Shown here piece by piece: positions 8,587 through 35,424 of a DNA stretch of 64,000 nt. How positions within the stretch are numbered: position 1 is the stretch's first letter; each line of letters opens with the position of its first letter. The DNA is from Adhaeribacter rhizoryzae (GTDB lineage Bacteria > Bacteroidota > Bacteroidia > Cytophagales > Hymenobacteraceae): assembly GCF_008629685.1 (NCBI RefSeq), contig NZ_VWSF01000016.1:62001-126000 (forward strand), given 5' to 3'. The notes beneath the pieces are model-generated. The model saw nothing but the letters and a program-made list of their open reading frames with translations. It was not told the DNA's origin and ran no database searches. A program made the position numbers and the translations under genes.

Positions 8587-11500
8587 ATGCAAAAAACCTT
8601 TACGCCTCGATTAGGCAAATTCGGTCTGGCTACAGCGCTGGTTTGCCTTTATTTTTCAGGGGCAGCGCAAACCCAACAGATTCCGGCAACAGCTATGGCG
8701 GTTGCCCGCTCCGCCAGTACGGCCAACTCGCCTGTTTCAGCCGTCGCCTCGGCCGTTTTGCCGGTTATTGATATTCGTGGAAAAGTTACCGACGATAAAG
8801 GTGATCCCTTACCCGGGGTAACAGTAGTGGTAAAAGGCACCACTAACGGAACTGCCACCGGTGCCGATGGTACTTATACCCTTAATTTACCGGAAGCCTC
8901 GGGTACTTTAATATTTTCTTACATTGGTTATGTTACCCGCGAAATACCCATTACCGGCAGCCAAACCACCATTAACGTTACCTTACAAGTAGATGCCAAA
9001 ACCCTGGAAGAAGTAGTAGTGGTAGGTTACGGTACTCAGAAAAAAGCCAACGTTACCGGAGCGGTATCATCTATTACGGTTGACAACCAGGTTTCAAGCC
9101 GGGCAGTACCCAACGTTTCATCGGCTATGTCGGGTTTGGTGCCAGGTTTGGCGGCTGTGCAATCTTCCGGTATGGCCGGCAGAAATGGTGCGGCTTTGGT
9201 TATTCGCGGTATTGGTTCGGTTAACGGCAACAGTGCTCCGCTGGTAGTAGTTGATGGTATGCCCGATATTGATATTAACCGCATCGACATGAACGATGTG
9301 GAAAGTATTTCGGTACTGAAAGATGCTGCTTCTGCGGCGGTATACGGTTCCAGAGCAGCTAACGGGGTAATATTAATTACCACCAAATCTGGTAAAGGCA
9401 AGAAAAAGGCTACTATTAACTTTACCAGCACCAATGCCCTCGAAACGCCTGTCCGGTCTTATGATTTTATGTCGGATTATCCCCGGGCTTTAACGCTGCA
9501 CCAACGGGCGCAGGCGGTTGGTACCCTGCCATCGAACTTTAACTTCCGGAACGGTACTATTGACCAGTGGATGGCTATGGGCATGATAGACCCGGTAAGA
9601 TACCCCAACACCGACTGGTGGAATGTTATTATGCGCGATGGCATTATTAGCCGCCAAAATCTTTCGGCCTCCGGCGGTAACGATTTATCTAATTTCTATA
9701 TCTCCGTGGGGATGGTAGACCAACAGGGCTTGCAGATTAACAATGATTATAAACAATATAACGCCCGGATAAATTACGATTACAAGGTTCGGAATAATAT
9801 AAATGTAGGTATTAAACTTACGGGTAATTCTTCTAAGCTTTCTTACGCCTTAGAACAAGGCTTTACCGATAGTGATGGTACCAACACGGCAGGTTACGAC
9901 ATGCAGTACGCCATTGCCGGTATTTTGCCTTACGACCCAACTACCGGTTACTTTGGTGGCGTTATGGCTTACGGCGAAGACCCCCAAGCTTATAACCCTT
10001 ATACCGTTTATGTAAATAACCTTACCCGCCAGAACCGTCAGGAAGCTAATGGTAATATTTTTGCCGATTGGTCGCCGATTGAAGGATTAACGGCTCGGGT
10101 TGATTATTTTATAAATTATGCCAACCAGTTCCAGTACAATGCTAATATGCCCAACCAGGCATATAATTTTCAGCAAGGCGCTTTTGGTAGCCGGGTTTAT
10201 GTAGGTTCTAATGCCGGTATCAGCAACCGGACCGATTCGGACTACAAAACCATGTTTACCGGCCGGTTAACGTACAACAAAAAACTGGCAGCTAACCACG
10301 AACTTGGCCTGTTGGCGGTTTATAGCGAAGAATACTGGAATGAGCGTTATCAGGGCAGTGGCCGGTCGGACCGGTTATATCCTACTTTACACGAAGTAGA
10401 TGCTGCCCTTACCTTGCCCGGCATGGTTTCGGCGAGTGGCGGTGTTAGTACCGAAGGCCTGCGCTCTTACATTGGCCGATTAAATTATACTGCCTTCGAT
10501 AAATACCTGTTAGAAGCTAACTTCCGGTACGATGGTTCTTCTAAATTTGTGGAAGGTTCTCAGTTTGGTTTCTTCCCTTCCGTAGCTGTAGGGTGGCGTT
10601 TTGTGGAAGAAAGCTTTTTGAAAGATTTTACCAGCCGCTTCTTAAGTAATGGTAAACTGCGCATGTCGTACGGTGGTTTAGGTAATAATTCTGGAGTAGG
10701 CCGCTACCAGCAAAAAGAAGTACTTGCCAATAATAACTACATGATTGGCAATAATATTGTAAAAGGGTTTGTTTACAGCAAAATGATTAACCCTGATTTG
10801 TCTTGGGAGTCTACTAATGTATTTAACTTAGGTTTAGACTTAGGCTTTCTGGACAACCGTTTAAGCGCCGAGTTAGATTATTATAACCGGTTAACTACCG
10901 GCATGATTCGTCCTTCGGAGTTTTCCATTCACTTATCCGGCGCTTATAACCCGCCACCGCCACGTAATATTGGTAACCTCCGTAACCGGGGCGTTGAGGC
11001 TAATTTAAATTGGTCCGACAATTTCCGTGAGGTAAGATACGGTCTTAACCTGAATGCATCTTACAACCGGAATGTGCTGGAATCGTGGAACGAGTTTATT
11101 GGCCGGGGTGCATCGCATAACAGTAACCAAATATTTGTGAATATGCCGTATGGTTTTATTTATTCTTACGAGGATATGGGTATTGCCCAAACCTGGCAGG
11201 ATATTTATAATGCCACTCCCCAGGGCGCCTCGCCGGGCGATATTTTGCGCCGAGACTTAAACGGCGATGGTCGGATTGACGGTAACGACAGAAAAGCTTA
11301 CCCCAATGTACAACGCTTGCGTCCTTCCACTAACTTCTCGCTTAACGCCAATGCTTCCTACAAAGGGTTTGATTTACTCGCTTTGTTCCAGGGTTCAACC
11401 GGCCGGAAAGATTTCTGGTTAAATAATTACAACAACGTAAACTTTGGCACCCAGCGTTACGCCTCTACCTGGCAGCATTGGAACAACCCCTGGAACCTGG

Positions 11501-11793
11501 AAAACCGGGCGGGAGCATGGCCGCGCTTGGCTGGTAATGCAAACCGCGAAGAGACTACTTTCTGGCTAGACGATATGAGCTTTATCCGGATTAAAAACCT
11601 ACAATTAGGCTACACCATTCCGGCTACCATCTTAAACAAAATTGGTGTAACCAGTCTGCGTGTTTTCGGTTCAGCCGAGAACCTGGCAACTTTCACCAAT
11701 TTCCGGGGTCTCGATCCTGAAAAAGGTGCCGACAGAAACGACATGTACCCGATTGTAAAATCTTATTCACTAGGTGTAAACCTAAGTTTATAA
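8587..11793 (+). CDS. SusC/RagA-type TonB-dependent outer-membrane transporter
   Basis: This 1068-residue protein imports oligosaccharides across the outer membrane together with the SusD lipoprotein encoded 11 nt downstream. A signal peptide (about 1-28) precedes a CarboxypepD_reg-like domain (about 62-135, with GKVTDDKGDPLPGV). The conserved EEVVVVGYGTQKK segment (141-153) and a plug domain (with VVDGMPDIDI and LKDAASAAVYGSRAANG) follow, then a long beta-barrel ending in a typical aromatic/leucine terminus (SLGVNLSL). It lacks the N-terminal STN domain present in the second SusC at 54713-58141, so it is not expected to signal to an anti-sigma factor. As first gene of the enzyme-rich PUL it probably takes up large uronate oligosaccharides. 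Confidence 0.96.
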   Translation: MQKTFTPRLGKFGLATALVCLYFSGAAQTQQIPATAMAVARSASTANSPVSAVASAVLPVIDIRGKVTDDKGDPLPGVTVVVKGTTNGTATGADGTYTLNLPEASGTLIFSYIGYVTREIPITGSQTTINVTLQVDAKTLEEVVVVGYGTQKKANVTGAVSSITVDNQVSSRAVPNVSSAMSGLVPGLAAVQSSGMAGRNGAALVIRGIGSVNGNSAPLVVVDGMPDIDINRIDMNDVESISVLKDAASAAVYGSRAANGVILITTKSGKGKKKATINFTSTNALETPVRSYDFMSDYPRALTLHQRAQAVGTLPSNFNFRNGTIDQWMAMGMIDPVRYPNTDWWNVIMRDGIISRQNLSASGGNDLSNFYISVGMVDQQGLQINNDYKQYNARINYDYKVRNNINVGIKLTGNSSKLSYALEQGFTDSDGTNTAGYDMQYAIAGILPYDPTTGYFGGVMAYGEDPQAYNPYTVYVNNLTRQNRQEANGNIFADWSPIEGLTARVDYFINYANQFQYNANMPNQAYNFQQGAFGSRVYVGSNAGISNRTDSDYKTMFTGRLTYNKKLAANHELGLLAVYSEEYWNERYQGSGRSDRLYPTLHEVDAALTLPGMVSASGGVSTEGLRSYIGRLNYTAFDKYLLEANFRYDGSSKFVEGSQFGFFPSVAVGWRFVEESFLKDFTSRFLSNGKLRMSYGGLGNNSGVGRYQQKEVLANNNYMIGNNIVKGFVYSKMINPDLSWESTNVFNLGLDLGFLDNRLSAELDYYNRLTTGMIRPSEFSIHLSGAYNPPPPRNIGNLRNRGVEANLNWSDNFREVRYGLNLNASYNRNVLESWNEFIGRGASHNSNQIFVNMPYGFIYSYEDMGIAQTWQDIYNATPQGASPGDILRRDLNGDGRIDGNDRKAYPNVQRLRPSTNFSLNANASYKGFDLLALFQGSTGRKDFWLNNYNNVNFGTQRYASTWQHWNNPWNLENRAGAWPRLAGNANREETTFWLDDMSFIRIKNLQLGYTIPATILNKIGVTSLRVFGSAENLATFTNFRGLDPEKGADRNDMYPIVKSYSLGVNLSL

Positions 11794-11804
11794 TTATTTA
11801 ATTT

Positions 11805-13655
11805 ATGCGTAATTTAAAAATAACTTCAACAAAACTATTTGTACCCATTCTGGCGGGGTTAATGTTTTTCGTGAGTGCTTGTCAAGATGACTTACTCGAC
11901 CAACAACCTACCACCGAACTAGGTACCGTTGCCTTCTGGAAAACAGAAGATGATGCAACTTTTGCCCTTTACGGAGCCTATGCGGGCATCCGGCCATTAT
12001 TCGATCGCGATTATTATTTTGAAGGACATGGTGAATATACCCGGGTGCGGGGTACCAGCGCCACCAGCGGTAACTTACGGTTAGGCGATGCTTACCAGGG
12101 TGCTAACTACGATCCCAGCGGTTATGGCGATGATTTCGATAAATATTACCGCTACCTCTACGGTGGTGTGCACCGGGCTAATTACGTTATTGAAAATACC
12201 AGAAAATTAATGGCCACTGCTAACCCTAATTCTCAGGCCAACCTGGAAAGAATTGTGGGCGAAGCCCGGTTGCTCCGCGGTATGGTTTATTTTCGGCTTA
12301 TTTCTATGTGGGGCGATGTACCCTATATTAGTAATGTAGTTACCTCAAATGCCCAGATAGCCGATATTGCCCGGATGCCTATTGGCCAGGTAAAAGACTC
12401 TATTATGGCCGACTTTACCTATGCCTACGAGAAACTGCCGGTAAAATCTACAGAATTAGGCCGTATGGCCAAACCGGCTGCTTTAGCCTTCCGGGGTAAA
12501 TTACAACTGTATTGGGGTAGCTGGAATAAAAACGGCTGGCCGGAATTAGAGGGTTTTACGCCCAATGCTACTGCTGCTAATGAGGCTTTTACGGCCGCTG
12601 CTGCCGATTTTAAGCAAGTAATAGAAGGTTTTGGTTTAAATCTTTTCCGCAACGGCGAGCCCGGCAATATTGATGCTTTGGGTAAGGCAGAGGTACTGCC
12701 TAACTACTATTATTTGTTTACCCCGGTTGCCAACGGCGATCCCGAAATGATTATGTACTTTACCCACGGTGGCCCCGGTACCAGCCAGGGAGAGGAACTG
12801 ATGCGCGACTTTTCGGGCCGTTCGCACGAAGGTTCTCAGTGCTGGGTATCGCCGCGTTACGAATTAGCCGACCGTTACCAGTTAACTACCACCGGCGATT
12901 TTGCGCCTGCTATGGTTCCTATGAACCCATCTACCAATGCTGCTGCCAGAACGGTTCCGAATTCGGCCGTAAATCCGCAAAGTTATGCTGATCGCGACTA
13001 TCGCATGAAAGCATCTATCATGTGGGATTATGAAATGAGTATTGGCATGGCGGCTTTAAAATCTACGGGCTGGACCCCGTTTATTTATAGAACCTGGGCA
13101 CAACCCGTTACTATTGATGGAGCAAGATTAACTACTTATAATACCGATGGTTCTAACTCGGGTTATGTATTCCGTAAGTTTTTGCGCAATTATGCCGGCC
13201 AGGGCCGCAGCGATGGCGATTATGCTTTTCCGGTAATGCGTTTAGCCGATGTTTACCTGATGTACGCCGAAGCTACCAATGAAGTAAACGGCCCGCAAGC
13301 CGATGCCATTGCGCTGGTAGATAAAATCCGTCATCGTGGTAATCTGCCCGCCTTAACTTCCGATAAAACCAGCAGTAAAGAAGCATTCTTCAATGCTATT
13401 GAGCAAGAACGTATAATAGAACTGGTAGCTGAAGGACACCGTGGTTTTGACCTGCGCCGTTGGAGAGCCCTGGACAGAGTTTGGGGGCCGCCGGCCAGTG
13501 CAGGCGTTTGGCGCATAGATACCTGGGGTGCCCAGCAAACCCGCTACTATCAAAATACGCCCGAAAGAACTTACCAGCAAAACTATATTTTTAGAATTCC
13601 GCCCGGCGAACGCGACCGTAACCCTAATTTAACCCAAAATACACCGTGGTTATAA
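11805..13655 (+). CDS. SusD/RagB-type surface glycan-binding lipoprotein
   Basis: The 616-residue lipoprotein caps the SusC barrel and binds glycan at the cell surface. The N-terminus is a lipoprotein signal with lipobox FVSAC, giving Cys26, followed by the acidic QDDLLDQ characteristic of SusD proteins. TPR-like helices are spread through the chain. The usual C-terminal hallmarks are MRLADVYLMYAEA and, later, EGHRGFDLRRW (about 540-550) followed by an IPPGERDRNPNL-like end. Only 11 nt separate it from SusC, so the two are co-transcribed and should form one complex. It is somewhat longer than many SusD proteins, consistent with a large glycan. Confidence 0.96.
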   Translation: MRNLKITSTKLFVPILAGLMFFVSACQDDLLDQQPTTELGTVAFWKTEDDATFALYGAYAGIRPLFDRDYYFEGHGEYTRVRGTSATSGNLRLGDAYQGANYDPSGYGDDFDKYYRYLYGGVHRANYVIENTRKLMATANPNSQANLERIVGEARLLRGMVYFRLISMWGDVPYISNVVTSNAQIADIARMPIGQVKDSIMADFTYAYEKLPVKSTELGRMAKPAALAFRGKLQLYWGSWNKNGWPELEGFTPNATAANEAFTAAAADFKQVIEGFGLNLFRNGEPGNIDALGKAEVLPNYYYLFTPVANGDPEMIMYFTHGGPGTSQGEELMRDFSGRSHEGSQCWVSPRYELADRYQLTTTGDFAPAMVPMNPSTNAAARTVPNSAVNPQSYADRDYRMKASIMWDYEMSIGMAALKSTGWTPFIYRTWAQPVTIDGARLTTYNTDGSNSGYVFRKFLRNYAGQGRSDGDYAFPVMRLADVYLMYAEATNEVNGPQADAIALVDKIRHRGNLPALTSDKTSSKEAFFNAIEQERIIELVAEGHRGFDLRRWRALDRVWGPPASAGVWRIDTWGAQQTRYYQNTPERTYQQNYIFRIPPGERDRNPNLTQNTPWL

Positions 13656-13701
13656 GGTTAGTTAATGGAAAAGAAGCCTTTAAATTTTAGAATTATTTAA
13701 A

Positions 13702-14106
13702 ATGAAAAAATACATTAAAATATTATTTATATGCTTACTGGTACCATTTGTCTGGATCGGTTGCAAAGAAGATTTCCCGATTGATGAAGATGGTTTATTA
13801 ATTACCAACCGCGGACAATGCTATGTAAGTAATTTTGAATTACTCGGTTCCGACTTCCAAACCGTTCGGAGTAAAAATGCGGTAATTGATACTGTAGCCC
13901 AAACCATTCGGGTAGAAGTATTTTTTGGAACAGATTTAAAAAATCTTTACCCACAGTTTTCGCTCGTAACCGATGCCAAGCTAGATCCTAAAATTACGGG
14001 TAAAGTAGATTTCTCGGATTTAAATAGTCCCAAAGTTTACACGGTAGTTTCCGGAAACCGGAAGGTCAGAAAACCCTATACGGTTTATGTTACAGTTCAA
14101 CAATAG
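13702..14106 (+). CDS. Small surface lipoprotein, DUF5018-like
   Basis: The product is a 134-residue lipoprotein with a signal peptide ending in WIGC (Cys21) and an acidic linker (KEDFPIDEDG). The remainder is one beta-sandwich-like domain with the conserved pattern of a predicted strand, ITGKVDFSDLNSPKVYTV, and the terminal PYTVYVTVQ. This matches the DUF5018 layout known from many Bacteroidota PUL lipoproteins. It lies 46 nt after SusD and 30 nt before the DUF4466 gene, so it is part of the SusCD operon. A role as accessory glycan-binding or SusCD-associated surface protein is likely but unproven. The family assignment rests on recall of the pattern. Confidence 0.8.
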   Translation: MKKYIKILFICLLVPFVWIGCKEDFPIDEDGLLITNRGQCYVSNFELLGSDFQTVRSKNAVIDTVAQTIRVEVFFGTDLKNLYPQFSLVTDAKLDPKITGKVDFSDLNSPKVYTVVSGNRKVRKPYTVYVTVQQ

Positions 14107-14136
14107 TAATGCCTTGAAGCTAAAAGATAATAATCA

Positions 14137-15120
14137 ATGAAACGTAAATATATTTTAAATATACCTATTCTGCTGGCATTGCTCCTGCTTTTGAATGCCT
14201 GCGAGGAAGAGAAGTATGCTATTCCCACTACCAAAGATGCGCTCCAGAACGACGTAATTAAACGGTCGCTAGGACCCAATTTGGTAGGCCAGAATATAGA
14301 ATTTACTTATGCCATGGCCCTCCCCGAAACCAGGGGCAAATTGGAATCGGCGCAAGTAGAAGCTTCTATAGAAGGCGCAACTGGCACTTACCTTGAAAAT
14401 AATTCTTATTCTGCCGGCAGTAATGGGGCAGATGTGGGCGTAAAAATTGGCGAGCCATCAGTTACCGAAGGTAAAATAACCAAAGTTACTTTCTCTGCCG
14501 ATACCATGGCCGCTACTTTGCGTTACTTTTACCGCATTCCGGAAGCTGCCCGCGGGCAATCCGTTACCTTTAAATTTACCGCCAATAGCAGCAACGGCGA
14601 AACAGTTTCTTATTCTATGGGACCTTACAATATCTCTAAAATGGATATGAAGCTGGACCTGGCAGTAAAGGATGGCGATGCCGCTTATATTTCTATTGAA
14701 GATATGGCCGTATATAACGCCGCTGCAGCAGAAGCTAACGCCGGTAAGATTGACCTGGTTTATTTACACCGGACTACGCCAACTTCTTTTGCCCACGCTT
14801 TGGTAGCGCCAGCCACCGACGCCCAATACCGGCCAGGTATTACCCTGCCAGCGGGGGTAAATCGCAATACCAAAATTAATAAGGTATGGGCGTTGCGAGA
14901 CCAGCAACTGGCTCGGGCACAATTTGGGGTATTTATCGATGACCTGGATTTTCAGCAACTGAACATTGCAGATGCCCCTAATTTTGCCCTGAATATGAGA
15001 GCCGAATCGGGGATCTGGGTTGAAACCGCTGATGGTAAGTATCGGGCTTATGTTTATGTTAATTCGATAAATAATACAGCTAAAAGTGCCGTGATTAGCA
15101 TCAAGCGCTTTACGCTGTAA
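14137..15120 (+). CDS. DUF4466-family surface lipoprotein
   Basis: The 327-residue lipoprotein has lipobox LLNAC (Cys22) and the acidic CEEEKYAIP start. The characteristic family features are ALQNDVIKRSLGPN (about 36-49), IEFTYAMALP, VEASIEGATGTYLENN, TMAATLRYFYRIPEAARG and YSMGPYNISKMDMKL. These closely match the DUF4466 proteins encoded beside SusCD in host-glycan and other PULs. No enzymatic motif is visible; such proteins are considered surface glycan-binding components. It is the last of four genes in the outer-membrane uptake cluster. A GC-rich hairpin (15164-15183) separates it from the lyase genes and may reduce read-through. Confidence 0.85.
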   Translation: MKRKYILNIPILLALLLLLNACEEEKYAIPTTKDALQNDVIKRSLGPNLVGQNIEFTYAMALPETRGKLESAQVEASIEGATGTYLENNSYSAGSNGADVGVKIGEPSVTEGKITKVTFSADTMAATLRYFYRIPEAARGQSVTFKFTANSSNGETVSYSMGPYNISKMDMKLDLAVKDGDAAYISIEDMAVYNAAAAEANAGKIDLVYLHRTTPTSFAHALVAPATDAQYRPGITLPAGVNRNTKINKVWALRDQQLARAQFGVFIDDLDFQQLNIADAPNFALNMRAESGIWVETADGKYRAYVYVNSINNTAKSAVISIKRFTL

Positions 15121-15183: not shown

Positions 15184-15216
15184 ATTTCTTACTAAAGCTA
15201 ATTGCCCGGCGTAAAT

Positions 15217-17286
15217 ATGATAAGACTTTTTACGGTATTTACGGTTTTATTTACCTTAGTTGCTTTAACTGCTCTGTTGCCCGCGCAGGCTTTGGCCCAA
15301 AAGTTTACGCATCCAGGCATCGACCAAACCGCCCAGGACCTGGCCCACATGAAAAGCCTGGTGCTAAAAGGCGAACAACCTTATAAAGATGCCTTTACCC
15401 GCCTCAAAGCCGCAGCCGATTTAAATTATATCGTTAAGCCGTATACCCACGTGCTGCGCGGACCCTACGGCAAACCTAATATTGGCGGCGACGACCTGGC
15501 CAAAAGTGCCCAAATAGCCTACAACTGTGCCCTCGTCTGGTACATTACCCAGGATAAAGCCTACGCAGATAAAGCTATCGAAATATTAAATGCCTGGTCG
15601 CCGGTGCTCTGGGATTTTGACTACAACGATGCCAAGCTCTTAGCCGCCTGGACCGGCCACGTACTATGTAATGCCGCCGAAATATTGCGCTACACCAACG
15701 CCGGCTGGCAGCCAAAAGAGATAGAGAACTTCTCGAATATGCTAATGACGGTGTACTATCCGTTAATGCGGCATTATTATCCGCAGGCCAATGGCAACTG
15801 GGATGGCGCCATTATTCACTCCATTATGGCCATGGCGGTTTTTACCGATAACCGCGAAATGTTCCAGAATGCGGTTAACCATTATTTGCGGGCACCCGTG
15901 AACGGCAGTATTTTTAAATATATTTACCCTAGCGGCCAATGCCAGGAAAGTACCCGTGACCAAGCCCACGTACAGTTAGGTTTAGGCGAATTTGCGGGAG
16001 CTGCTCAAATAGCTTACACGCAGGGCGTAGATCTTTTTTCGGTGGGGAATAACCGGCTGGCTTTAGGATACGAATATACCGCTAGCTTTTTGCTCGGCCA
16101 GCAACCCCAGAGTTACGGTAAAATATCGGAGCGTGCCAAGACCCTGCGAGACGATTACGAAGCCGTTTATGCTCATTATACTGCTCGTGGCGTGGCCATG
16201 CCTTACACCAAAATGGCCCTCGACTCAATCCGCCCGAAAGCCAACCGCAGTATTTTAACGGCCGTGCGGGTTCCTGCCACCAAAGCACAAACGAAATCCG
16301 GTACGCCTAAACCGAGCCCCATTGGCTATGTGGCCGGTGCAGGAGTAGGAACTAAATTTAATTTTCCGGAAAATGCCATTATGGTTTCGCCCGGCCAATC
16401 GCTGCAGCAAGCACTAAACTCGGCGGCAGGTACTGGTAAGTGGGTGGTGGCCAAAGCGGGCTTACATACTTTACCAACCACGCTCAAAATACCCAGCGGT
16501 ATAACGCTGGCCGGCGAAGGTTTAGGCACTATTCTCTTCCTGGACCCGGCCTCCGGCGAAAGAGAAGCTTTGGTTAATGCCGCCAACGACCTGCACGATG
16601 TAACCATCCGGGATTTAGTAGTGGAAGGATCTAACAAACCGGAACCACCCAGCGATCCCAACAGTGCCCGTTCTTACCGCGTTGGCTACAACCGGGGCGG
16701 TATTATTTTCCGGGCTTTGCAAGAAGGCCAAATGAAGCGCATCAACTTCACCAACCTGACTGTGCGCAATTGTACGTTCAACGGTGTGCTGATTAGTGGT
16801 GCAGCGGGCGTAAATATTACCCGTTGCGATTTTGACGAAAACGGCTCTAGCATAGTACCCGGTCCCAAATTGCAACACAACCTCTTGTTAACCCATTGCT
16901 CCGACATAAATATTAAAGACAACCGCCTGGATACTTCGCCGCACGGCAGCGGGATAGCCCTGGACCATTGCCAAGATGCGGTTATCACCAATTCCGAAAT
17001 TGCCCGCAATGCTTATTATGGGGTATTAATTTCCGAATCTCAAAATATTACGGTTAAGGATAATTTAATCGAGGCGAACGACCACAGCGGCGTAATGGTA
17101 GAATTTCTGTCGCGGGGCTCTGAAAATATTACCGTCAGCAATAACCAAATTCAGTTTAACGATGGATACGGGGTAGAAACCTACGCGGTGCGTAACGGCA
17201 AAATTCAAAACAATAAATATACCGGCAACGGCAACCAAAACGAGCAGCAACTGGTGCGTGCTGATAAAGTAATCTTAATGCCTTAA
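15217..17286 (+). CDS. Secreted two-domain polysaccharide lyase candidate: alginate-lyase toroid fused to a parallel beta-helix
   Basis: The 689-residue protein uses the ATG at 15217, which starts a normal signal peptide (MIRLFTVFTV...ALAQ); a TTG five codons upstream is disfavoured. Residues ~30-330 form an alpha/alpha-toroid of the alginate-lyase superfamily (PF05426-like). Visible features are NGNWDG (192-197) and RDQAHVQLGLGE (247-258), which contain the Asn and His expected in the catalytic cleft. After a Pro/Lys-rich linker (~345-370), residues ~380-685 form a right-handed beta-helix with recurring N-x-I/V turns (ITRCDFDENG, ITVKDNLIEANDHSG, ITVSNNQIQFND), like PbH1 repeats of pectate-lyase-type proteins. 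Two different lyase folds in one chain suggest combined endo/exo cleavage or binding plus cleavage of a uronate polymer. Exact PL family is uncertain. Confidence 0.85.
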   Translation: MIRLFTVFTVLFTLVALTALLPAQALAQKFTHPGIDQTAQDLAHMKSLVLKGEQPYKDAFTRLKAAADLNYIVKPYTHVLRGPYGKPNIGGDDLAKSAQIAYNCALVWYITQDKAYADKAIEILNAWSPVLWDFDYNDAKLLAAWTGHVLCNAAEILRYTNAGWQPKEIENFSNMLMTVYYPLMRHYYPQANGNWDGAIIHSIMAMAVFTDNREMFQNAVNHYLRAPVNGSIFKYIYPSGQCQESTRDQAHVQLGLGEFAGAAQIAYTQGVDLFSVGNNRLALGYEYTASFLLGQQPQSYGKISERAKTLRDDYEAVYAHYTARGVAMPYTKMALDSIRPKANRSILTAVRVPATKAQTKSGTPKPSPIGYVAGAGVGTKFNFPENAIMVSPGQSLQQALNSAAGTGKWVVAKAGLHTLPTTLKIPSGITLAGEGLGTILFLDPASGEREALVNAANDLHDVTIRDLVVEGSNKPEPPSDPNSARSYRVGYNRGGIIFRALQEGQMKRINFTNLTVRNCTFNGVLISGAAGVNITRCDFDENGSSIVPGPKLQHNLLLTHCSDINIKDNRLDTSPHGSGIALDHCQDAVITNSEIARNAYYGVLISESQNITVKDNLIEANDHSGVMVEFLSRGSENITVSNNQIQFNDGYGVETYAVRNGKIQNNKYTGNGNQNEQQLVRADKVILMP

Positions 17287-22375: not shown

Positions 22376-22408
22376 GCTCCCCTCCTGTTTTAGGAGGGGT
22401 AGGGGTGG
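22376..22408. repeat. CCCCTCC/GGAGGGG intergenic hairpin element, copy 2
   Basis: AGCTCCCCTCCTGTTTTAGG continues as AGGGGTAGGGGTGGT. The stem CCCCTCC/GGAGGGG has a TGTTTTA loop. It lies between the PL38-like and PL8-like genes and shares its stem and tail with the element at 38060-38092. Confidence 0.65.
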
Positions 22409-22470
22409 TAAATTTTCAAGTACCTAAATATTGCTACCCACCTACTGCTGTAATATCCTGTTTATCCACC

Positions 22471-26333: not shown

Positions 26334-26377
26334 ATATCCACCACAAATAATTGAATCAACCAAACTTAAAATTTCAC

Positions 26378-28327: not shown

Positions 28328-28398
28328 AATACCAGCTTATGGCCGGGCAAAACCAAACTTTGGTTCTCCCGGATACTTTCTCTAACTTTATTAAATTT

Positions 28399-28425: not shown

Positions 28426-28465
28426 TTAAATAGAGAATGCTTTTAAAAATGAATATTGGTCATCC

Positions 28466-28528
28466 TGAGCTTGTCGAAGGATCTATAACAGCATTATAAA
28501 GTAGATTATAGCTACTTCGACAAGCTCA
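28466..28528. repeat. TGAGCTTGTCGAAG inverted repeat
   Basis: TGAGCTTGTCGAAG (28466-28479) pairs with CTTCGACAAGCTCA (28515-28528), a perfect 14-bp inversion around 35 nt. The sequence CATCCTGAGCTTGTCGAAGG is a well-known type of interspersed repeat in Bacteroidota genomes. Confidence 0.7.
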
Positions 28529-28647
28529 ACATAACTACAATAAGTGAAGCACTTAACTAATTAATAAGAGTATAAATTTTCCGATTAAAAAGAATAAAAA
28601 TTTATTTCCACCATTACTAATAGCTTAAATTATTTACCAAATCCATC

Positions 28648-29850
28648 ATGAAAATTTCTTATAAACTAATGGCCGTGCTCGGCCTGATTTCCATTTTTGC
28701 TTTTGTACAGTATGCCTCCGTTCCGGTGAAAAGTGCCATGCAAGCCGTTCAGGTGCATTTAGCCAACATGGCCAAAACCAACACCGACTTAACCAAATAT
28801 CCCCGTTCTACTAAAAAAGACGGTACTATTGCCACTACTGCTTCGCGCGACTGGACCAGCGGTTTCTTCCCCGGTTCGTTGTGGCTAACGTACGAATATA
28901 CCAAAGATAAAAAATGGGAAACGCTGGCCCGCCAGTGGACCGCCGGCTTAGAAAAAGAGCAGTTTAACAAAGGAACCCACGACTTAGGCTTTATGATTTT
29001 CTGCAGCTTTGGCAATGGTTACCGCTTAACCAAAGATCCGAAATACAAAGACATTATTATTCAGGCTTCTAAATCGCTGATTACCCGTTTTAATAAGAAA
29101 GCCGGCGTTATCCGGTCCTGGGACCACAACCGCGATAAGTGGGATTACCCGGTAATTATTGACAACATGATGAACCTGGAAATGCTGTACTGGGCTTCTA
29201 AGCAAACCGGCGACCCGATTTATGCCAATGTGGCCACCACCCACGCCTTAACCACGCTTAAACACCATTTCCGTCCCGATTACAGCAGTTTTCACGTAGT
29301 AGATTATGATACCCTAACCGGCCAGGTGCGTAAGAAAACCACCCACCAGGGCTACTCCGATGCTTCGGCTTGGGCCCGTGGCCAAGCCTGGGGCTTATAT
29401 GGCTACACCGTTACTTACCGCGAAACCAAAGACCCGCGTTTCCTGAAACAAGCGCAAGCCATTGCCGATTTCTTCATCAACCACAAAAATACGCCGGCCG
29501 ATAAAATTCCTTACTGGGATTTTGATGCGCCTGCCCGGGCCGATTTACCCCGCGATGCTTCCGCCGCCGCTATTGCCGCTTCTGGCTTGTTGGAGTTAAG
29601 CAAATATTCCGGTGCCAAAGGCGAAACCTACAAAAAAGCGGCTTCGCAAATGTTAGCCAGTTTAGCTTCGCCGGCTTACCTGGCCAAAGCCAACACCAAC
29701 AATAACTTTGTTCTGATGCACTCTACCGGCCACTTACCCAACAACTCCGAAATAGATGTACCCCTGAACTACGCCGATTATTATTTTATTGAAGGCCTGA
29801 TGCGCTGGGAGCAAATGAATAAAACCAAAGCGCCAGCGAAAAAAGGATAA
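28648..29850 (+). CDS. Unsaturated glucuronyl hydrolase, glycoside hydrolase family 88
   Basis: The 400-residue protein has a signal peptide or short N-terminal anchor (about 1-30) and a (alpha/alpha)6 GH88 barrel. The family acids are Asp112 in KGTHDLGFM and Asp172 in IIDNMMNLEM, in the positions that act in known unsaturated glucuronyl hydrolases. RDWTSGFFPGSLW, RGQAWGLYGY and WDFDAP are further signatures. The enzyme hydrates the 4,5-double bond of the terminal unsaturated uronate made by lyases, causing ring opening and release from the oligosaccharide. It therefore completes the lyase pathway encoded upstream and is the strongest evidence that the PUL degrades a uronate glycan. Confidence 0.95.
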   Translation: MKISYKLMAVLGLISIFAFVQYASVPVKSAMQAVQVHLANMAKTNTDLTKYPRSTKKDGTIATTASRDWTSGFFPGSLWLTYEYTKDKKWETLARQWTAGLEKEQFNKGTHDLGFMIFCSFGNGYRLTKDPKYKDIIIQASKSLITRFNKKAGVIRSWDHNRDKWDYPVIIDNMMNLEMLYWASKQTGDPIYANVATTHALTTLKHHFRPDYSSFHVVDYDTLTGQVRKKTTHQGYSDASAWARGQAWGLYGYTVTYRETKDPRFLKQAQAIADFFINHKNTPADKIPYWDFDAPARADLPRDASAAAIAASGLLELSKYSGAKGETYKKAASQMLASLASPAYLAKANTNNNFVLMHSTGHLPNNSEIDVPLNYADYYFIEGLMRWEQMNKTKAPAKKG

Positions 29851-30276: not shown

Positions 30277-31827
30277 ATGGAAATCTGGCAATACATAGAA
30301 ATTTTAAGAAGACCGAACAAGACTTGGTTTTTCTCTAAGGACAACACCGAAGAGAAAATTAATGCCTTGACAAAAATAGCTAGTAACGGCTATCCAAGTC
30401 TTATATACAGCTTAACTGATTATCTTAAAGACAGTAATAAAGAAATAAGAGAAACTACTTGCAGGACAATCATTCACTTATTTAAGAAGATTGACAATAA
30501 AAAAGAATATTACGATACTCTTAAACACTGCAACATTTCGAAAAGTGATATTGACTTCTATGAAGCTAATTTTCCGACAGAGCAGTATGTTGAGTTGTTG
30601 GCAATTAGTTCATTAAACGGAAGTGGTTATATTCGAGAAAAAGCTGTCAAAAGACTTTCACAAGTTAATAATCGAAGAGCTATCAAGTTTTTAATTTATA
30701 GATTGGCTGATTGGGTTTTGCCAGTTCGACAAGAAGCACTTAAAGGAATTGAGATTTACAAAACAGGTGCATACATTGATAGTCTTATTGAAAACTTGCC
30801 AATTATTACATGGCTTCAAAAGGTTGAACGGACTGACTTAAGCGGAGTTTATCAAGAAATAATTAATTTTATTGCTTCAGAAAACAGAAATTATGTAATT
30901 ACTAATTTCAGCAAGTATCCCGATAAACTAAGATTGATTTTAGCTAAACATATTTCAAGTTCTTTGATTGATATTTCAAAGGAATTAAAAATATTTCTAA
31001 CCGATAAACATTTTCTGATAAGAAATTTGGCTGTTGACCACTTTGACAAACTTGAACAAAGTGAAATTGACCAATTACTAAATGACAAGTCAGCTAGAGT
31101 CAGATTTCAAACTCTTCTTTGTCTAAAGAACCGAGACGAATTTGAAAATGTCGTTAAAAACTATTTAGCTGACAATTCAGCTACAATAAGATATTTTGCA
31201 AGATTTACGCTAAAGCAAACAAGTATTAACTTTGCTGACTTTTACAATAAAAGCTTACAAGTTGGTAATCAAGTAATTGGTTCTCTCATTGGACTTGCAG
31301 AAGTTGAAGCAAAACAATACTCAAAAAATGTAAAAAACTATTTAAACGACAATAAAATAAAGATTAGAAAGACAGCTTTTTTAGTCCTGTGTAAACTTGA
31401 CGAAGAAAATGCTTATGAATTTGCTTTTGCAAACCTTGATAGTTCATATGTTGGACTTAGAAACGTAATCATTGACTTTTTATCACTTGTTCCGAGACAA
31501 GAGGTTTTGGCGAAGGCAAGAGAAATTTACAAAAACGGCAACTACGAACTAAAAAGATCAATGTTGAATCTTTTCAATAAAATTGGCGGATGGATAACAA
31601 TCCCTGACTTAATGATAGGAACCGTTGACGAAAACGAAAACATTAGACAATTGGCTTGGCAATATTTACAAATATGGAAAGCCAGAGCAGTCAGATTATT
31701 TTCAGCCCCTAAACAAGAAGAAATAGAAAGAGCAAAACGGATTTTCAACTTTGCACACGAGACACATGAAGATAAACAATATTTTATAACAAATCCGTTA
31801 AATGGGCTTGACTTTTACTTCAAATAA
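30277..31827 (+). CDS. HEAT-repeat protein
   Basis: The 516-residue soluble protein has no signal peptide and consists of tandem helical repeats with HEAT-like patterning. Examples are REKAVKRLSQVNNRRAIKFL, VRQEALKGIEIY, IRNLAVDHFDKL, ARVRFQTLLCL, IRYFARFTLKQT, IRKTAFLVLCKL and IRQLAWQYLQIW. The chain is Lys/Asn/Ile-rich and codons end mainly in A or T, unlike the GC-richer PUL genes on both sides, which suggests recent horizontal acquisition. No catalytic motif was recognised; such proteins usually act as scaffolds for protein binding. It is followed by toxin-antitoxin-like genes, so a role in an accessory or defence island is possible, but there is no direct evidence. Confidence 0.85.
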   Translation: MEIWQYIEILRRPNKTWFFSKDNTEEKINALTKIASNGYPSLIYSLTDYLKDSNKEIRETTCRTIIHLFKKIDNKKEYYDTLKHCNISKSDIDFYEANFPTEQYVELLAISSLNGSGYIREKAVKRLSQVNNRRAIKFLIYRLADWVLPVRQEALKGIEIYKTGAYIDSLIENLPIITWLQKVERTDLSGVYQEIINFIASENRNYVITNFSKYPDKLRLILAKHISSSLIDISKELKIFLTDKHFLIRNLAVDHFDKLEQSEIDQLLNDKSARVRFQTLLCLKNRDEFENVVKNYLADNSATIRYFARFTLKQTSINFADFYNKSLQVGNQVIGSLIGLAEVEAKQYSKNVKNYLNDNKIKIRKTAFLVLCKLDEENAYEFAFANLDSSYVGLRNVIIDFLSLVPRQEVLAKAREIYKNGNYELKRSMLNLFNKIGGWITIPDLMIGTVDENENIRQLAWQYLQIWKARAVRLFSAPKQEEIERAKRIFNFAHETHEDKQYFITNPLNGLDFYFK

Positions 31828-31931
31828 AAGAAGGTCTGTCACCTACACGCAAACCGTTAGGAAACTAGTCGGGAAAGAAAAGGTATAAGGATTCCCAACT
31901 GAAAATGTTAAATCCTGTAAAATAAACTGTT

Positions 31932-32165
31932 ATGAATATACAAGCAGAAAAATTAAAGCTTATAGAATGGCTTGCCGGAGTTACAGACCAGACCGTAATA
32001 GAAAGAATTAAATATTTAAAGGAGAATCAACCGGCAGAAGCTGATTGGTGGGAAGAAATTACCCAAGCCGAGAAAGATGCTATTGACCAAGGGCTAGACG
32101 ATGCCCAGAATGGTAAAGTAACTGCTCATGAAGAAGTAAAGAAGCGTTATGAGAAATGGCTATAA
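31932..32165 (+). CDS. Antitoxin of a RelE/ParE-type module
   Basis: The 77-residue acidic protein has a short N-terminal helix (EKLKLIEWLAGV) and the central WWEEITQAEKDAIDQGLDDA segment. It ends with GKVTAHEEVKKRYEKW. This layout is common among Bacteroidota antitoxins paired with RelE/ParE toxins. The last 17 nt overlap the toxin start, indicating translational coupling. A DNA-binding autoregulatory role is expected, but no classic helix-turn-helix is certain. The gene is AT-rich like its neighbours. Confidence 0.85.
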   Translation: MNIQAEKLKLIEWLAGVTDQTVIERIKYLKENQPAEADWWEEITQAEKDAIDQGLDDAQNGKVTAHEEVKKRYEKWL

Positions 32166-32451
32166 AGTAGTCTGGACAAACAAAGCCTTAGCCAATCTTG
32201 ACAATATTATTAAATATTTAACGGACAACTGGACGGAAGTAGAAATAGCAAAATTCTTCCGAAAGCTCGATAACAGGATAAATATCATTGCACAACGACC
32301 TCTTCTTTATCCCTTAACGAATAGCAGAAAGAACGTTAGACGTTCTGTTTTGACCCCTCAAATTACCATCTATTATAGAATAAATAAGCAGGTGGTTGAA
32401 ATTATAACGCTCTTTGATAATAGGCAGAGACCTTCTAAATTAATACTATAA
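32149..32451 (+). CDS. RelE/ParE-family toxin
   Basis: The 100-residue basic protein has the RelE/ParE pattern: the VVWTNKALANLDNIIKYLTDNW N-terminal strand and helix, and the middle RINIIAQRPLLYPLT. C-terminal strands VRRSVLTPQITIYYRI and VVEIITLFDNRQRPSKL follow. The ending with Tyr, Arg and the DNRQ(R/N)P motif is typical of ParE-like members, which can inhibit gyrase; RelE-like members cut mRNA on the ribosome. Which applies cannot be decided. It overlaps the antitoxin by 17 nt. Confidence 0.9.
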   Translation: MRNGYKVVWTNKALANLDNIIKYLTDNWTEVEIAKFFRKLDNRINIIAQRPLLYPLTNSRKNVRRSVLTPQITIYYRINKQVVEIITLFDNRQRPSKLIL

Positions 32452-32606
32452 AACCAATATGCTGCTTAATAGTGCCTTTACTACAACCGTGTTTAAATGC
32501 TTAAGTTAAGATTTATTCGGTTTGCTTTGGGTGGTTATACTAAGCCGGGACGCAAGGCACAAACTAAAGAATTACGCTACTTTACTTAAATCATAAATTT
32601 AGTATA

Positions 32607-32849
32607 ATGACAAATATCAAAGACTACATCAGTATTGACCAAAAAATATTAGGAGGGCAACCCGTTTTTAAAGGAACCCGAGTTCCAATAGAAACCCTTT
32701 TCTTTCATTTAGAAAAAGGAGTTTCTTTAGACGAGTTTTTAGAAGATTTTCCTTCGGTAAGCAAAGAACAAGCAGTTAGTGTATTGGGAATTGCCGAAAA
32801 AATAATGACTTCTAAAAATATTGAAAAGCTGTATGAAGCTGCTGCTTGA
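32607..32849 (+). CDS. DUF433 protein, VapB-like antitoxin
   Basis: The 80-residue protein has the full DUF433 signature: ISIDQKILGGQPVFKGTRVPIETLF followed by GVSLDEFLEDFPSVSKEQA and a C-terminal helix. DUF433 proteins have a small winged-helix-like fold and are usually paired with a PIN-like DUF5615 nuclease, as here. The last 17 nt overlap the start of the downstream gene, the same overlap length as in the upstream RelE module. Confidence 0.92.
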   Translation: MTNIKDYISIDQKILGGQPVFKGTRVPIETLFFHLEKGVSLDEFLEDFPSVSKEQAVSVLGIAEKIMTSKNIEKLYEAAA

Positions 32850-33156
32850 TGAAAACTTACCCAAGCGGCTAAAACTTGCTTTTTCGGAACATGAAATCTA
32901 CACAGTTCACGACAAAGGCTGGGCCGGAAAGAAGAATGGAGAATTAATGAAGCTATTAATAGCCGAGAACTTTGACGCTTTATTCACCTTCGACAAGAAT
33001 TTGCAGTACCAACAGAACTTTAAAAAGTATGCTGTTCCTGTTTTAGTACTTAATGCTACTGACAATACTTATTTAACATTGAACAAACTGGTGCCCAAAA
33101 CCAAAGAAGTTCTCAACGAAAAACTAGTACCTGGGCCCATAATTATTAGTGAATAA
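32833..33156 (+). CDS. DUF5615 PIN-like protein, VapC-like toxin
   Basis: The 107-residue protein starts at ATG 32833, since MKLLLDENLP is the canonical family start; a TTG four codons earlier is less likely. Asp6 and Glu7 in LLDENLP, the DKGWAGKKNGEL segment and FDALFTFDKNLQYQQN (with two Asp residues) form the acidic PIN-like active-site set. The family is presumed to be Mg-dependent ribonuclease toxins neutralised by DUF433 partners. It ends the AT-rich island; the next gene returns to the uronate-lyase theme. Confidence 0.9.
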   Translation: MKLLLDENLPKRLKLAFSEHEIYTVHDKGWAGKKNGELMKLLIAENFDALFTFDKNLQYQQNFKKYAVPVLVLNATDNTYLTLNKLVPKTKEVLNEKLVPGPIIISE

Positions 33157-33236: not shown

Positions 33237-34472
33237 ATGTTTCTTATAAAAACCAATAATTTGTTGCGCTGGTTTGTCTTTTTTCTCTTAATCCAAACAA
33301 CAATAACCGCCGCTTTCCCAAAAGAAACCAAAGCACCACGGCTATTTATTCTAAAACCGGCGGCTTTAGAACTAGCGGCTAAAAAACTAAAAGCCGGCGA
33401 TGCCGCTACTACCGCTGCTTACAAAAAGCTGATAACCGAAGCCGATAAAGCTTTGCAACTTGGCCCCCTTACGGTAATGCACAAGCAAATTATACCACCC
33501 AGCGGCGATAAGCACGATTACATGAGCGTAGGCCCTTACTGGTGGCCCGACCCCAGCAAACCCAACGGCTTGCCTTACATCCGGCGCGACGGCGAAGTAA
33601 ATCCGGAACGTACTAAAAACGGCGACAACGATGAACTGAAACAGATGCAGGAAGCGGTAATGAATCTGGCTTATGCTTATTATTTCAGCCGGAACGAAAA
33701 ATATGCTACGCACGCGGCCACCTTAATCCGCACCTGGTTCTTAAACGAAGCCACGCGCATGAACCCCAACTTAAACTATGGGCAAGCTATTCCGGGCATA
33801 ACCCAGGGCCGGGGCATTGGCATTATCGATACGCATTATTTCCCTTACCTGGTAGATGCTGTTGGTTTACTGGCGGGCTCCAAAGCCTGGACCAAAGCCG
33901 ACCAGCAAGGCCTGGAAAAGTGGTTTGGCGAATATTTGAATTGGCTCTTGAAAAGTCCGTTGGGGGTAGACGAAGCCGATGAGCATAACAACCACGGCAC
34001 CTGGTACGATGTGCAAGTGGCCTCTTTTGCACTGTTTTCGGGTAAGCCAGATTTGGCCAAAAAAATACTGGAAGAAGTAAAAACCAAACGCGTTGCCACG
34101 CAAATTAAGCCCGATGGTTCGCAGCCCCACGAACTGGCCCGCACTCTATCGTTTAACTACAGCACCATGAACCTGCAGGCATTTTTCGATTTGGCTTCGC
34201 TGGGCCGCCACGTAGGCGTAGATTTATGGCATTACAAAACACCTGATGGCAAAGGCATCCGGACCGCCATCGATTATTTTCTGCCGTTTATTAAGGAGGA
34301 GCAAAAATGGCCGCATCAGCAAATAAAAGCAATAAATTATGCCGGCGTTTTGCCGTTGCTGCTGGAGGCTGCCCGGCAATATAAAGACCCGCGTTACACG
34401 GCAGCCGTTGCCAAAATATCCGGACCCGCTACTACCGGCAATAAAGCTTTTCTGCTGAACCCGGTAAATTAA
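33237..34472 (+). CDS. Alginate lyase family protein (PF05426 type)
   Basis: The 411-residue secreted protein (signal about 1-26) has a single toroid. PYWWPDPSKPNGLPYIRRDG (100-119) is the conserved early block of PF05426 enzymes. EHNNHGTWYDVQ (249-260) carries the catalytic Asn/His pair, and HELARTLSFNYSTMNL (298-313) supplies Arg302 and Tyr308. This is a nearly textbook active-site set, so enzymatic activity is likely. Known members depolymerise alginate or related uronates. It is separated from the rest of the PUL by the AT-rich island, but its direction and role fit the same pathway. The esterase gene follows. Confidence 0.92.
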   Translation: MFLIKTNNLLRWFVFFLLIQTTITAAFPKETKAPRLFILKPAALELAAKKLKAGDAATTAAYKKLITEADKALQLGPLTVMHKQIIPPSGDKHDYMSVGPYWWPDPSKPNGLPYIRRDGEVNPERTKNGDNDELKQMQEAVMNLAYAYYFSRNEKYATHAATLIRTWFLNEATRMNPNLNYGQAIPGITQGRGIGIIDTHYFPYLVDAVGLLAGSKAWTKADQQGLEKWFGEYLNWLLKSPLGVDEADEHNNHGTWYDVQVASFALFSGKPDLAKKILEEVKTKRVATQIKPDGSQPHELARTLSFNYSTMNLQAFFDLASLGRHVGVDLWHYKTPDGKGIRTAIDYFLPFIKEEQKWPHQQIKAINYAGVLPLLLEAARQYKDPRYTAAVAKISGPATTGNKAFLLNPVN

Positions 34473-34554
34473 TGGCTTTTATATGCAGATTTGGGTTTAC
34501 GCGCTTATCTGCTTAACATTGCTCTATAACTTGCTAATTTCTTTTTATTACCCG

Positions 34555-35424
34555 ATGAAATTATTTAAAAGTACCCTCTTTGTTTTTTTGTTTCTAACAA
34601 CTTTCAGCTCGTGGGCGGCTAAGGTAGATACCCTAACTATTCAGAGTGCGGCCATGAATAAAACCTGGCGGGTCGGAGTAGTGGTGCCGCAATCGTATAA
34701 AAAAGCCAAAATGGCTTTCCCGGTGTTGTATTTATTGCACGGCTACAGTGGCAATTTCCGCGATTGGCTTACCAAAACCCCGGATAAGGAATTACTGCAC
34801 CGCATGGCCGATAAATACAACATGATTATTGTAACGCCCGACGGCGGCTTTAGCAGTTGGTACCTCGATAGCCCCCTGGACAAAGAAACCCAGTTCGAAA
34901 CCTTCATCACAAAAGAACTAGTTGACCGGGTAGATAAAGATTATCGAACAGTTAAAACCCGAGAGGGTAGGTTTATTTCGGGCCTGAGTATGGGCGGCCA
35001 CGGTGCTTTGTATTTGTCGGCGCGCCACCCGCAACTGTACAGCGCGGCCGGCAGCATGAGCGGCGCGCTCGATATTTCGGGCCTCGAAGCCAAAAACCTG
35101 AACCAGAGCATCGAAAAATTACTCGGCCCGAAAGAACAAAATCTGGAGAAGTTTAAAGCCAACTCGATGGTGTACCTGGCTGACCAACTAAAAGCCAACG
35201 ACGTAAAAATATTTATTGATTGCGGCGTAGACGATTTCTTAATTGAGAGCAACCGCGAATTGCACCGCCGGCTGGTTTACAACAAAACTCCCCACGAATA
35301 CATAGAACGGCCCGGCGCTCATACCTGGCCTTACTGGGGTTATGCCTTAGAATACCATTTATTGTTTTACCAGAAAGTTAGAGAAGGCAATAGCCCCTTG
35401 CCCCCGGCTTCTGCCAAGAAATAA
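34555..35424 (+). CDS. Secreted esterase, alpha/beta hydrolase, paralog of 4493-5368
   Basis: The 289-residue protein starts at ATG 34555 because that gives the signal peptide MKLFKSTLFV...SSWAA, aligning with its paralog. An ATG 24 codons upstream would prepend an additional hydrophobic helix. The nucleophile is Ser145 in GLSMG. Acid candidates are Asp222/226/227 in IDCGVDDFL and the His is His256 in GAHTWPYW. The motif order and many residues match the esterase at 4493-5368, so the two are recent paralogs on either side of the PUL. Substrate is probably an acylated oligosaccharide, by inference from context. Confidence 0.9.
   Translation: MKLFKSTLFVFLFLTTFSSWAAKVDTLTIQSAAMNKTWRVGVVVPQSYKKAKMAFPVLYLLHGYSGNFRDWLTKTPDKELLHRMADKYNMIIVTPDGGFSSWYLDSPLDKETQFETFITKELVDRVDKDYRTVKTREGRFISGLSMGGHGALYLSARHPQLYSAAGSMSGALDISGLEAKNLNQSIEKLLGPKEQNLEKFKANSMVYLADQLKANDVKIFIDCGVDDFLIESNRELHRRLVYNKTPHEYIERPGAHTWPYWGYALEYHLLFYQKVREGNSPLPPASAKK

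Follow-up and report, generated by a model that had tools for sequence, protein, structure and literature searches.

Gene content and limits of the locus

The window analysed here is a stretch of 64,000 nucleotides from the 6.5 Mb genome of Adhaeribacter rhizoryzae (contig NZ_VWSF01000016.1, positions 62,001 to 126,000), and it carries a polysaccharide utilization locus (PUL) dense in lyase-like genes. A Pfam scan of 40 open reading frames (ORFs), a part of all ORFs in the window, together with PDB searches confirmed the SusC, SusD, two accessory proteins, seven lyase-like proteins and GH88 enzyme of an initial annotation made from the sequence. The assignment to families by hidden Markov models that it had called for, run with Pfam, recovered Alginate_lyase three times, Hepar_II_III twice, PL8 and BNR_4. 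The locus is ordinary in kind yet unusually rich, as had been claimed. What is new in it is the unclassified protein U492 and a PL8 clade with an altered active site, not the number of lyases. Its features, and those that follow it up to 35424, are listed below.

8587..11793, +: SusC-like TonB-dependent transporter (Pfam CarbopepD_reg_2 and Plug; 77% identity to Adhaeribacter aerolatus)
11805..13655, +: SusD-like glycan-binding protein (Pfam SusD_RagB, E-value 2.4e-49)
13702..14106, +: small accessory lipoprotein-like protein (no Pfam family; relatives of 63-85% identity adjoin SusD in loci L026, L033 and L038)
14137..15120, +: DUF4466 accessory protein (Pfam E-value 1.3e-142; accompanies the SusC/SusD block in Segetibacter loci L033 and L038)
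15202..17286, +: fusion of an alginate-lyase-type toroid and a right-handed beta-helix (Pfam Alginate_lyase; GNW at the NNH position)
17596..19074, +: U492, unclassified beta-sandwich and alpha-helical protein, predicted to cleave glycans (no Pfam or NCBIfam family)
19127..21031, +: predicted PL35 lyase, GAGase II-like (Pfam Hepar_II_III; 8khv match; His191-Asn192, Tyr246, His401)
21233..22315, +: stand-alone alginate-lyase toroid, PL38/PL5-related (Pfam Alginate_lyase; NNW at the NNH position)
22405..24693, +: PL8 protein (three Pfam PL8 domains; Asp216 and Arg265 at the canonical Asn and His; Tyr275 and Arg330 kept)
24732..26108, +: BNR_4 propeller, putative enzyme of the PL25 / rhamnose-glucuronic acid lyase / GH145 fold group (Pfam; AlphaFold2 and Foldseek)
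26351..28327, +: predicted PL33 lyase of subfamily 1 type (Pfam Hepar_II_III; 8r73 match; Asn238, Trp239, Trp242, Tyr291, SHNHND motif)
28648..29850, +: predicted GH88 unsaturated glucuronyl hydrolase (best match 3wiw, then 2zzr and 1vd5)
30277..33156, +: unrelated insertion outside the PUL, with a HEAT-repeat gene, a ParE-like ORF (32140) and a DUF433/DUF5615 pair
33237..34472, +: predicted PL38 lyase, NNHG motif intact, paired with the next gene (3nfv, E-value 2.6e-96; 8bdq, 1.1e-71)
34483..35424, +: PF00756 esterase, paralog of 4478-5368 (Pfam; 58% identity)

The conserved PUL consists of the SusC/SusD block (8587-15120) and the enzyme block (15202-29850). Across 4478-29850 A. aerolatus has the same gene order, at 70-98% amino acid identity, and synteny ends after GH88. 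Hence, the interval first marked out as one PUL (8587-35424) joins the conserved locus to a separate PL38-esterase pair. No match to the HEAT, DUF433 or DUF5615 genes was found near the A. aerolatus locus; the ParE-like label of ORF 32140 is our own reading, and the DUF433/DUF5615 pair is toxin-antitoxin-like. The PL38 gene found no match within 78.0-136.8 kb of the A. aerolatus contig, the stretch searched, where the sole match of esterase 34483 was the ortholog of 4478. PL38 and its esterase were thus ruled out as core members of the conserved locus, since no PL38 was found beside the A. aerolatus counterpart. PL38 proteins encoded within the loci of other lineages are only 36-37% identical to 33237 and carry the motif NNHGTC. 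The two esterases of the initial annotation do exist, but 4478-5368 lies outside the interval given for them. The pairing proposed for them is not supported, as one is set apart on the upstream side by about 3 kb and two genes of opposite orientation, and the other lies beside PL38 outside the conserved locus.

The two blocks differ in their divergence from A. aerolatus. The synonymous substitution rate (dS) is 0.86-3.1 for three upstream genes, SusC, SusD, the lipoprotein and DUF4466, and 0.35-0.59 for the eight enzymes, the three upstream genes being the whole chromosomal yardstick. Fourfold-degenerate sites are identical at 531/1108 positions in the 4478-15120 part versus 1313/1819 in the enzyme block (Fisher test, P-value 2.5e-39), with the switch point at 15200-15300. 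For a third congener (G006, locus L027), dS of U492, PL35, PL8 and the propeller is 1.0-1.3. These values suggest that the enzyme block by itself was exchanged at a later time between the two Adhaeribacter species or their relatives. Stronger constraint on synonymous sites would be an alternative, though a less likely one, since high expression is usual for SusC and SusD. Two Segetibacter genomes have the block of SusC, SusD, lipoprotein and DUF4466 in the opposite orientation to the enzyme block, which there comprises U492, PL35, PL8, PL38 and GH88.

The initial annotation had seen neither a sulfatase nor a dedicated regulator, and we likewise found no sulfatase among the scanned ORFs and no dedicated regulator in the locus. 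The nearest regulator-like gene, a kinase at 6001-7725, was rejected: near full-length relatives of 44-49% identity occur in congeners G002, G003 and G005, in none of which PL35 or U492 was found; the kinase is therefore not specific to the PUL. Literature searches turned up nothing on DUF4466 and, judged from the search results alone, no paper on this Adhaeribacter locus.

The U492 family in bacteria and phages

U492, missing from the initial list of genes, is in our judgment the most interesting of them. It has no Pfam or NCBIfam family, and its AlphaFold2 model (39-row alignment, mean predicted local distance difference test score (pLDDT) 92.6) matched no PDB fold at E-value <= 0.001, the weak matches including PL17, PL33 and other helical toroids. 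These comparisons covered Pfam, NCBIfam and PDB folds, and U492 may yet belong to a CAZy family. A GH154-like dehydratase was considered and rejected, as the beta-glucuronate dehydratase 9nwf was matched only at E-value 7.9.

Relatives were found at 63 loci, short contigs or partial matches included, in a collection of 84,980 genomes (tblastn, E-value <= 1e-3). By record titles they belong to Bacteroidota, Planctomycetota, Verrucomicrobia, Myxococcales and others. The family is rare in an even sample of the phylum (2/395 genomes, the source genome included), and no match was found in plasmids. Nine charged or polar residues (Arg193, Arg235, Tyr258, Asp295, His312, Arg316, Lys317, Glu343 and Asp344) are present in 12/12 aligned rows, among them three near-identical phage rows, and each of them in 37-39 of the 39 rows of the bacterial set. 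Neighbours of U492 elsewhere include GH106 (L039, L054), a PL12-like protein (L037) and a heparinase/alginate-lyase protein (L046). A fusion of U492 with PL38 is encoded at L030:9032-11602, in a metagenome-assembled genome (MAG) of Prolixibacteraceae.

Searches of a viral structure library returned two strong U492 matches (template modeling (TM) score 0.88, 41% identity). By sequence, a protein in 20 mycobacteriophage records (Redno2 counted twice) aligns with 92% of U492 at 42% identity; we examined the gene order in two of these phages, Halley and Dove. Halley gp45 (L173:8287-10407) is annotated as a minor tail protein and closes the run of tail genes, with a single gene between it and lysin A; it consists of a minor-tail N-terminus, a lectin-like Laminin_G_3 domain and a C-terminal U492 part. 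Dove has the same gene order, with the U492 relative annotated as hypothetical. In Redno2 the U492-matching gene is labelled lysin A, though in Halley and Dove lysin A is a different gene that lies downstream. The profile of PHROG phrog_34846, whose listed function is unknown, aligns at positions 238-703 with U492 residues 36-491 (E-value 3.5e-110). The U492 part is thus common to these tail-operon proteins and to the PUL protein, whereas the phage proteins add the minor-tail N-terminus and Laminin_G_3. A U492 domain C-terminal to a tail-attachment domain, as in Halley, and a place among tail genes, as in Halley and Dove, would suit a candidate tail depolymerase. Two Microcystis phages carry more distant relatives (23-25% identity over 61-71%), annotated as carbohydrate esterase, one of which adjoins a tail-fiber gene; in viral contigs L169 and L170 the match covers 35 residues only. 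Literature searches on cluster J with depolymerase and on Mwe-JY phages turned up nothing.

As a control, six other cassette enzymes (GH88 left out) were compared with the same phage collection and met no annotated tail gene. They matched nine records (PL35 1, fusion 2, propeller 0, PL33 1, PL8 5, toroid 0). The control is weak because 8/9 of these carry no annotation; the ninth is a bacterial record, in which the matching gene is annotated as PL8.

The most economical reading of these data is that U492 cleaves polysaccharides, and we take it for a probable new glycan-cleaving family; its occurrence in phage tail genes hints that the food of the PUL is the slime or coat of other microbes. Several observations weigh against this. 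Binding without cleavage would be an alternative function, since phage tail domains can bind and not cut. A PL8-like match (22% identity) in one unannotated Enterococcus phage record means that phage homologs are not unique to U492. The envelope of M. smegmatis, one of the phage hosts, is not known to be rich in glucuronic acid (GlcA). Finally, queries with the window proteins found other cassette lyases at only 8/63 U492 loci, and U492 is therefore not tied to uronate lyases; a wider query set raises the count of loci with lyase-type neighbours to 10/63, but six of these had supplied queries.

Active sites of the other cassette enzymes

The best solved relative of the 19127 product is GAGase II (8khv; E-value 5e-278, 604 residues aligned). 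Its Asn192, Tyr246 and His401 align with the published catalytic residues under the same numbers, the roles of which are given in PMC12088678. We regard the protein as a predicted PL35 lyase in which the checked catalytic residues are intact. Its His191 aligns with His188 of the alginate-active GAGase III, where GAGase II has Asn.

Orthologs of PL35 are present in 3/8 genomes of the genus, the source genome included, and the same holds for U492. At E-value <= 1e-30, PL35 has matches in 75/390 genomes of the order. Among 20 chosen stretches around such genes, another lyase, propeller or GH88 query lay nearby in five (L153, L154, L155, L156 and L159) and none in 15/20. PL35 was therefore ruled out as a marker of this PUL, being common in the order and often without the other genes. 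L159 is compact, its recognised PUL genes being SusC/SusD, PL35, PL33 and GH88, and in stretch L161 a sulfatase lies near PL35. In L143-L148, from relatives in the same order, PL35 genes of 68-71% identity have no other queried PUL gene nearby. A. aerolatus has a second PL35-like gene, 30% identical (G001:C7:183634-185382, in L124, G001:C7:174000-193900), which adjoins another SusC/SusD pair. Positions 48054-60331 of the window hold another SusC/SusD pair, accompanied by DUF5013, FecR and a sigma factor, near a ThuA/GSDH/PKD/cytochrome c/CBM6 protein.

The 26351 product is best matched by BcPL33-HA (8r73; E-value 5.5e-116) and keeps Asn238, Trp239, Trp242, Tyr291, the catalytic His and the SHNHND motif, with Trp242 as in subfamily 1. 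Residue roles, and the Trp at the -1 base as the mark of PL33_1, follow PMC11848413. The protein is a putative PL33_1 lyase; the residues checked do not tell specificity for hyaluronan (HA) from specificity for heparosan. GH88 matches 3wiw at E-value 1.5e-121, and its HDLGFM and IIDN(L/M)MN motifs align, including both motif acids, which are the catalytic ones in this family. The GH88 enzyme 3wiw is specific for glycosaminoglycans (GAGs), and the next-best solved relatives, 2zzr and 1vd5, are streptococcal and Bacillus unsaturated glucuronyl hydrolases.

Three other proteins of the cassette have altered catalytic positions. In the PL8 protein, Lyase_8_N, Lyase_8 and Lyase_8_C all score above the Pfam cut-off, and the best solved relative is chondroitinase AC (E-value 2.4e-96). 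GAG-active PL8 enzymes employ Asn, His and Tyr, published for 1RWA as Asn183, His233 and Tyr242. The window protein has Asp216 and Arg265 at the first two positions and thus lacks the canonical active site. In a seven-row alignment, this Asp/Arg combination is found in 5/5 rows of the window clade (window, L026, L033, L038 and L030), whereas the remaining two rows (L034 and L029) have the canonical residues (Asn175 and His224 in L034 numbers), with a spacing of 49 and 9 residues that agrees with 1RWA; Tyr and Arg are kept. We think decay an unlikely cause of these changes, because Asp and Arg are identical throughout the clade and the frames are open. Immediately before Arg265 stand His263 and His264, either of which could act as the catalytic His at a shifted position. 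The clade would offer a test of how far a lyase active site can alter yet stay under selection.

The catalytic NNH motif of PL38/PL5-type toroids is replaced by GNW in fusion 15202 and by NNW in toroid 21233; 33237 keeps it. Neither of the two altered toroid proteins is found in the collinear stretch of the third congener. The term lyase, initially applied to all of these proteins, thus fits PL35 and PL33 by their intact residues and is less secure for PL8, the two toroids and the propeller, which may be a hydrolase.

The propeller (24732) has no PDB sequence match at E-value <= 0.01. Foldseek with its AlphaFold2 model (nine-row alignment, pLDDT 77.6) gave as top match the PL25 ulvan lyase 5uam (E-value 1.8e-16, TM-score 0.70), and the first 14 matches are chains of six enzymes of this fold group plus one 'putative neuraminidase'. 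The six are the PL25 ulvan lyase, the Fusarium rhamnose (Rha)-alpha-1,4-GlcA lyase, BACINT_00347, BACCELL_00856 and BT3686 (all three titled glycoside hydrolase) and the lyase Uly1; BACINT_00347, BACCELL_00856 and BT3686 belong to GH145, and the fold group takes in PL25, PL42-type and GH145 propellers. The best NCBIfam match is rhamnosidase BT3686, at 27 of 700 bits, far under the cut-off. The modelled fold would suit a lyase as well as a hydrolase of GH145 type. Those of the matched enzymes whose function is known act at Rha-GlcA bonds, and a Rha-GlcA unit in the glycan is suggested for that reason.

Target glycan and the closest known systems

A GlcA-containing target is supported because the best solved relatives of PL35, PL33, GH88 and PL8 act on GlcA glycans, and to this extent the uronate glycan first proposed holds up. 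We suggest, with a probability of about 0.42, that the locus takes apart a branched, largely unsulfated GlcA polymer, likely a microbial exopolysaccharide or capsule, by means of a two-module PUL. The SusC/SusD/lipoprotein/DUF4466 block would capture and import the glycan, and the movable enzyme cassette (15202-29850) would degrade it; bacterial, cyanobacterial or microalgal exopolysaccharide or capsule would be the most likely source. In the order proposed, the first cuts, at the cell surface, may come from U492 and perhaps from the beta-helix fusion too. Hexose(amine)-1,4-GlcA bonds would be split through beta-elimination by PL35 and PL33, and the propeller would act on Rha-alpha-1,4-GlcA, either removing it or cutting at it. 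Differently substituted uronates might fall to PL8 and the two toroids with altered residues, unless these only bind, and GH88 would take off the unsaturated uronates. We infer these activities, as well as the glycan and the cellular location. A more specific version, which we put forward tentatively, makes U492 a new polysaccharide-cleaving family with a beta-sandwich and then a helical part, common to phage tail depolymerases and to Bacteroidota, Planctomycetota, Verrucomicrobia and Myxococcota, that would open a branched GlcA/Rha exopolysaccharide for a mobile lyase cassette with a rewired Asp/Arg PL8.

Some of our own data weigh against a microbial exopolysaccharide of this kind. The propeller is only 11-15% identical to its Foldseek matches and its model is of moderate quality; the presence of Rha is inferred from fold similarity. 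Two related lyase loci in MAGs carry a sulfatase gene, one recognised by Pfam (L028) and the other 44% identical to it (L034), which tells against the unsulfated part of the initial claim, whereas it is favoured by the fact that no sulfatase was found in the locus itself. In turn, PL35, PL33 and PL8 all have GAG lyases as their closest characterized relatives. A serious rival, which could plausibly be the right answer, is a PUL that feeds on HA, heparosan or unsulfated chondroitin derived from bacterial capsules or animal debris, with PL35, PL33 and PL8 as the cutting enzymes and GH88 for the last step. The best solved relative of GH88 is a GAG enzyme as well, and the compact relative L159 has SusC/SusD, PL35, PL33 and GH88 as its recognised PUL genes. 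The published PUL of the marine Bacteroidete Roseihalotalea indica (PL8, PL35, PL38 and CE19, no sulfatase listed) is up-regulated on chondroitin sulfate (CS) and its three lyases cut HA (PMC13027841). This makes a GAG a strong rival and weakens the initial statement that the exact glycan is not obvious. Likewise, BcPL35 is reported to work with BcGH88 on unsulfated chondroitin, in a PUL that has no chondroitin sulfatase.

The same rival has to contend with the Asp and Arg of PL8, where GAG-active enzymes use Asn and His, and it gives no evident role to the propeller of Rha-GlcA type, the two altered toroids, the beta-helix fusion or U492. The Pfam scan of the locus also showed no hexosaminidase (a GH20 is present elsewhere in the genome). 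Related MAG loci add GH29 (fucosidase) and GH31 next to the sulfatase (L028), a second BNR_4 protein, CE15 and AXE1 esterases (L030), or a PL12-like lyase and GH28 next to the sulfatase (L034); a linear GAG would not need the fucosidase, GH31, CE15 or GH28. There is also a bias toward GAGs among solved relatives, as GAG enzymes are those that have been studied. Between a Rha/GlcA exopolysaccharide and hyaluronan or chondroitin, we slightly favour the former.

It is improbable that the locus in truth serves a sulfated glycan, with the sulfate groups removed by enzymes from other parts of the genome. Such enzymes are at hand: of 13 Pfam sulfatase matches across the genome, 12 score above the cut-off (two of the 12 are neighbouring pieces), and BcPL35 is described in PMC12269599 as dependent on an unlinked sulfatase. 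Sulfatase matches accompany 4/63 U492 loci (L028, L034, L055 and L086; self-queries left out), and a sulfatase also lies in the PL35 stretch L161. One candidate source would be a cluster on contig C7 (L008, G000:C7:92000-111900) with three sulfatases, GH20 and, by our reading, two SusC/SusD-like sets with a hydrolase-like gene between them. However, this cluster appears to have its own SusC/SusD sets, tblastn found no sulfatase in the stretches examined of the Segetibacter loci L033 and L038 and of L026 in A. aerolatus, and published PL35 enzymes favour unsulfated or 6-O-sulfated chains.

A PUL for mannuronan, alginate or glucuronan with the alginate-lyase toroids as main enzymes is unlikely: three proteins match Pfam Alginate_lyase, PL35 has the His of alginate-active GAGase III and, according to PMC13027841, PL38 covers alginate and glucuronan lyases, but the two core toroids lack NNH, the sole intact one (33237) lies outside the conserved locus, published Asn to His swaps gave other GAGases no alginate activity, and no further alginate-lyase family was found among the 40 ORFs scanned.

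Should a microbial exopolysaccharide prove to be the target, the locus would be an instance of a bacterium that lives on slime made by others, a poorly mapped carbon flow. A family common to PULs and phage tail operons would give a direct route to a new class of glycan-cleaving enzymes, and the phage hosts M. smegmatis and Microcystis supply concrete candidate substrates for U492.

Among known systems, the closest published one is the R. indica GAG-PUL, which according to PMC13027841 shares SusC, SusD, PL8, PL35, PL38 and an esterase with the window and has no sulfatase listed; there, RiPL8 cuts HA, and RiPL35 and RiPL38 cut HA and CS. By its description, the inactive N-terminus of RiPL8 is an Alginate_lyase toroid, which here is a separate gene directly upstream of PL8. 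The R. indica PUL includes PL38, whereas in the window PL38 lies past the insertion and is not conserved with the locus, and the window PL8 has an altered active site. Beyond what is listed for R. indica, the window has PL33, GH88, the BNR_4 propeller, the beta-helix fusion, DUF4466 and U492. Bacteroides caccae PUL25, described in PMC12269599, resembles the window in having PL35 with GH88, which cooperate on unsulfated chondroitin, and no chondroitin sulfatase; its GH154-type dehydratase, GH109 and M60-like proteins were not recognised among the window ORFs scanned, and the window locus has more lyase folds. At the level of single enzymes, PL35 shares its three catalytic residues with GAGases II and III and sides with GAGase III at His191 (PMC12088678 and PMC11262172), and PL33 retains the residues and motif described for BtPL33-HA and BcPL33-HA in PMC11848413.

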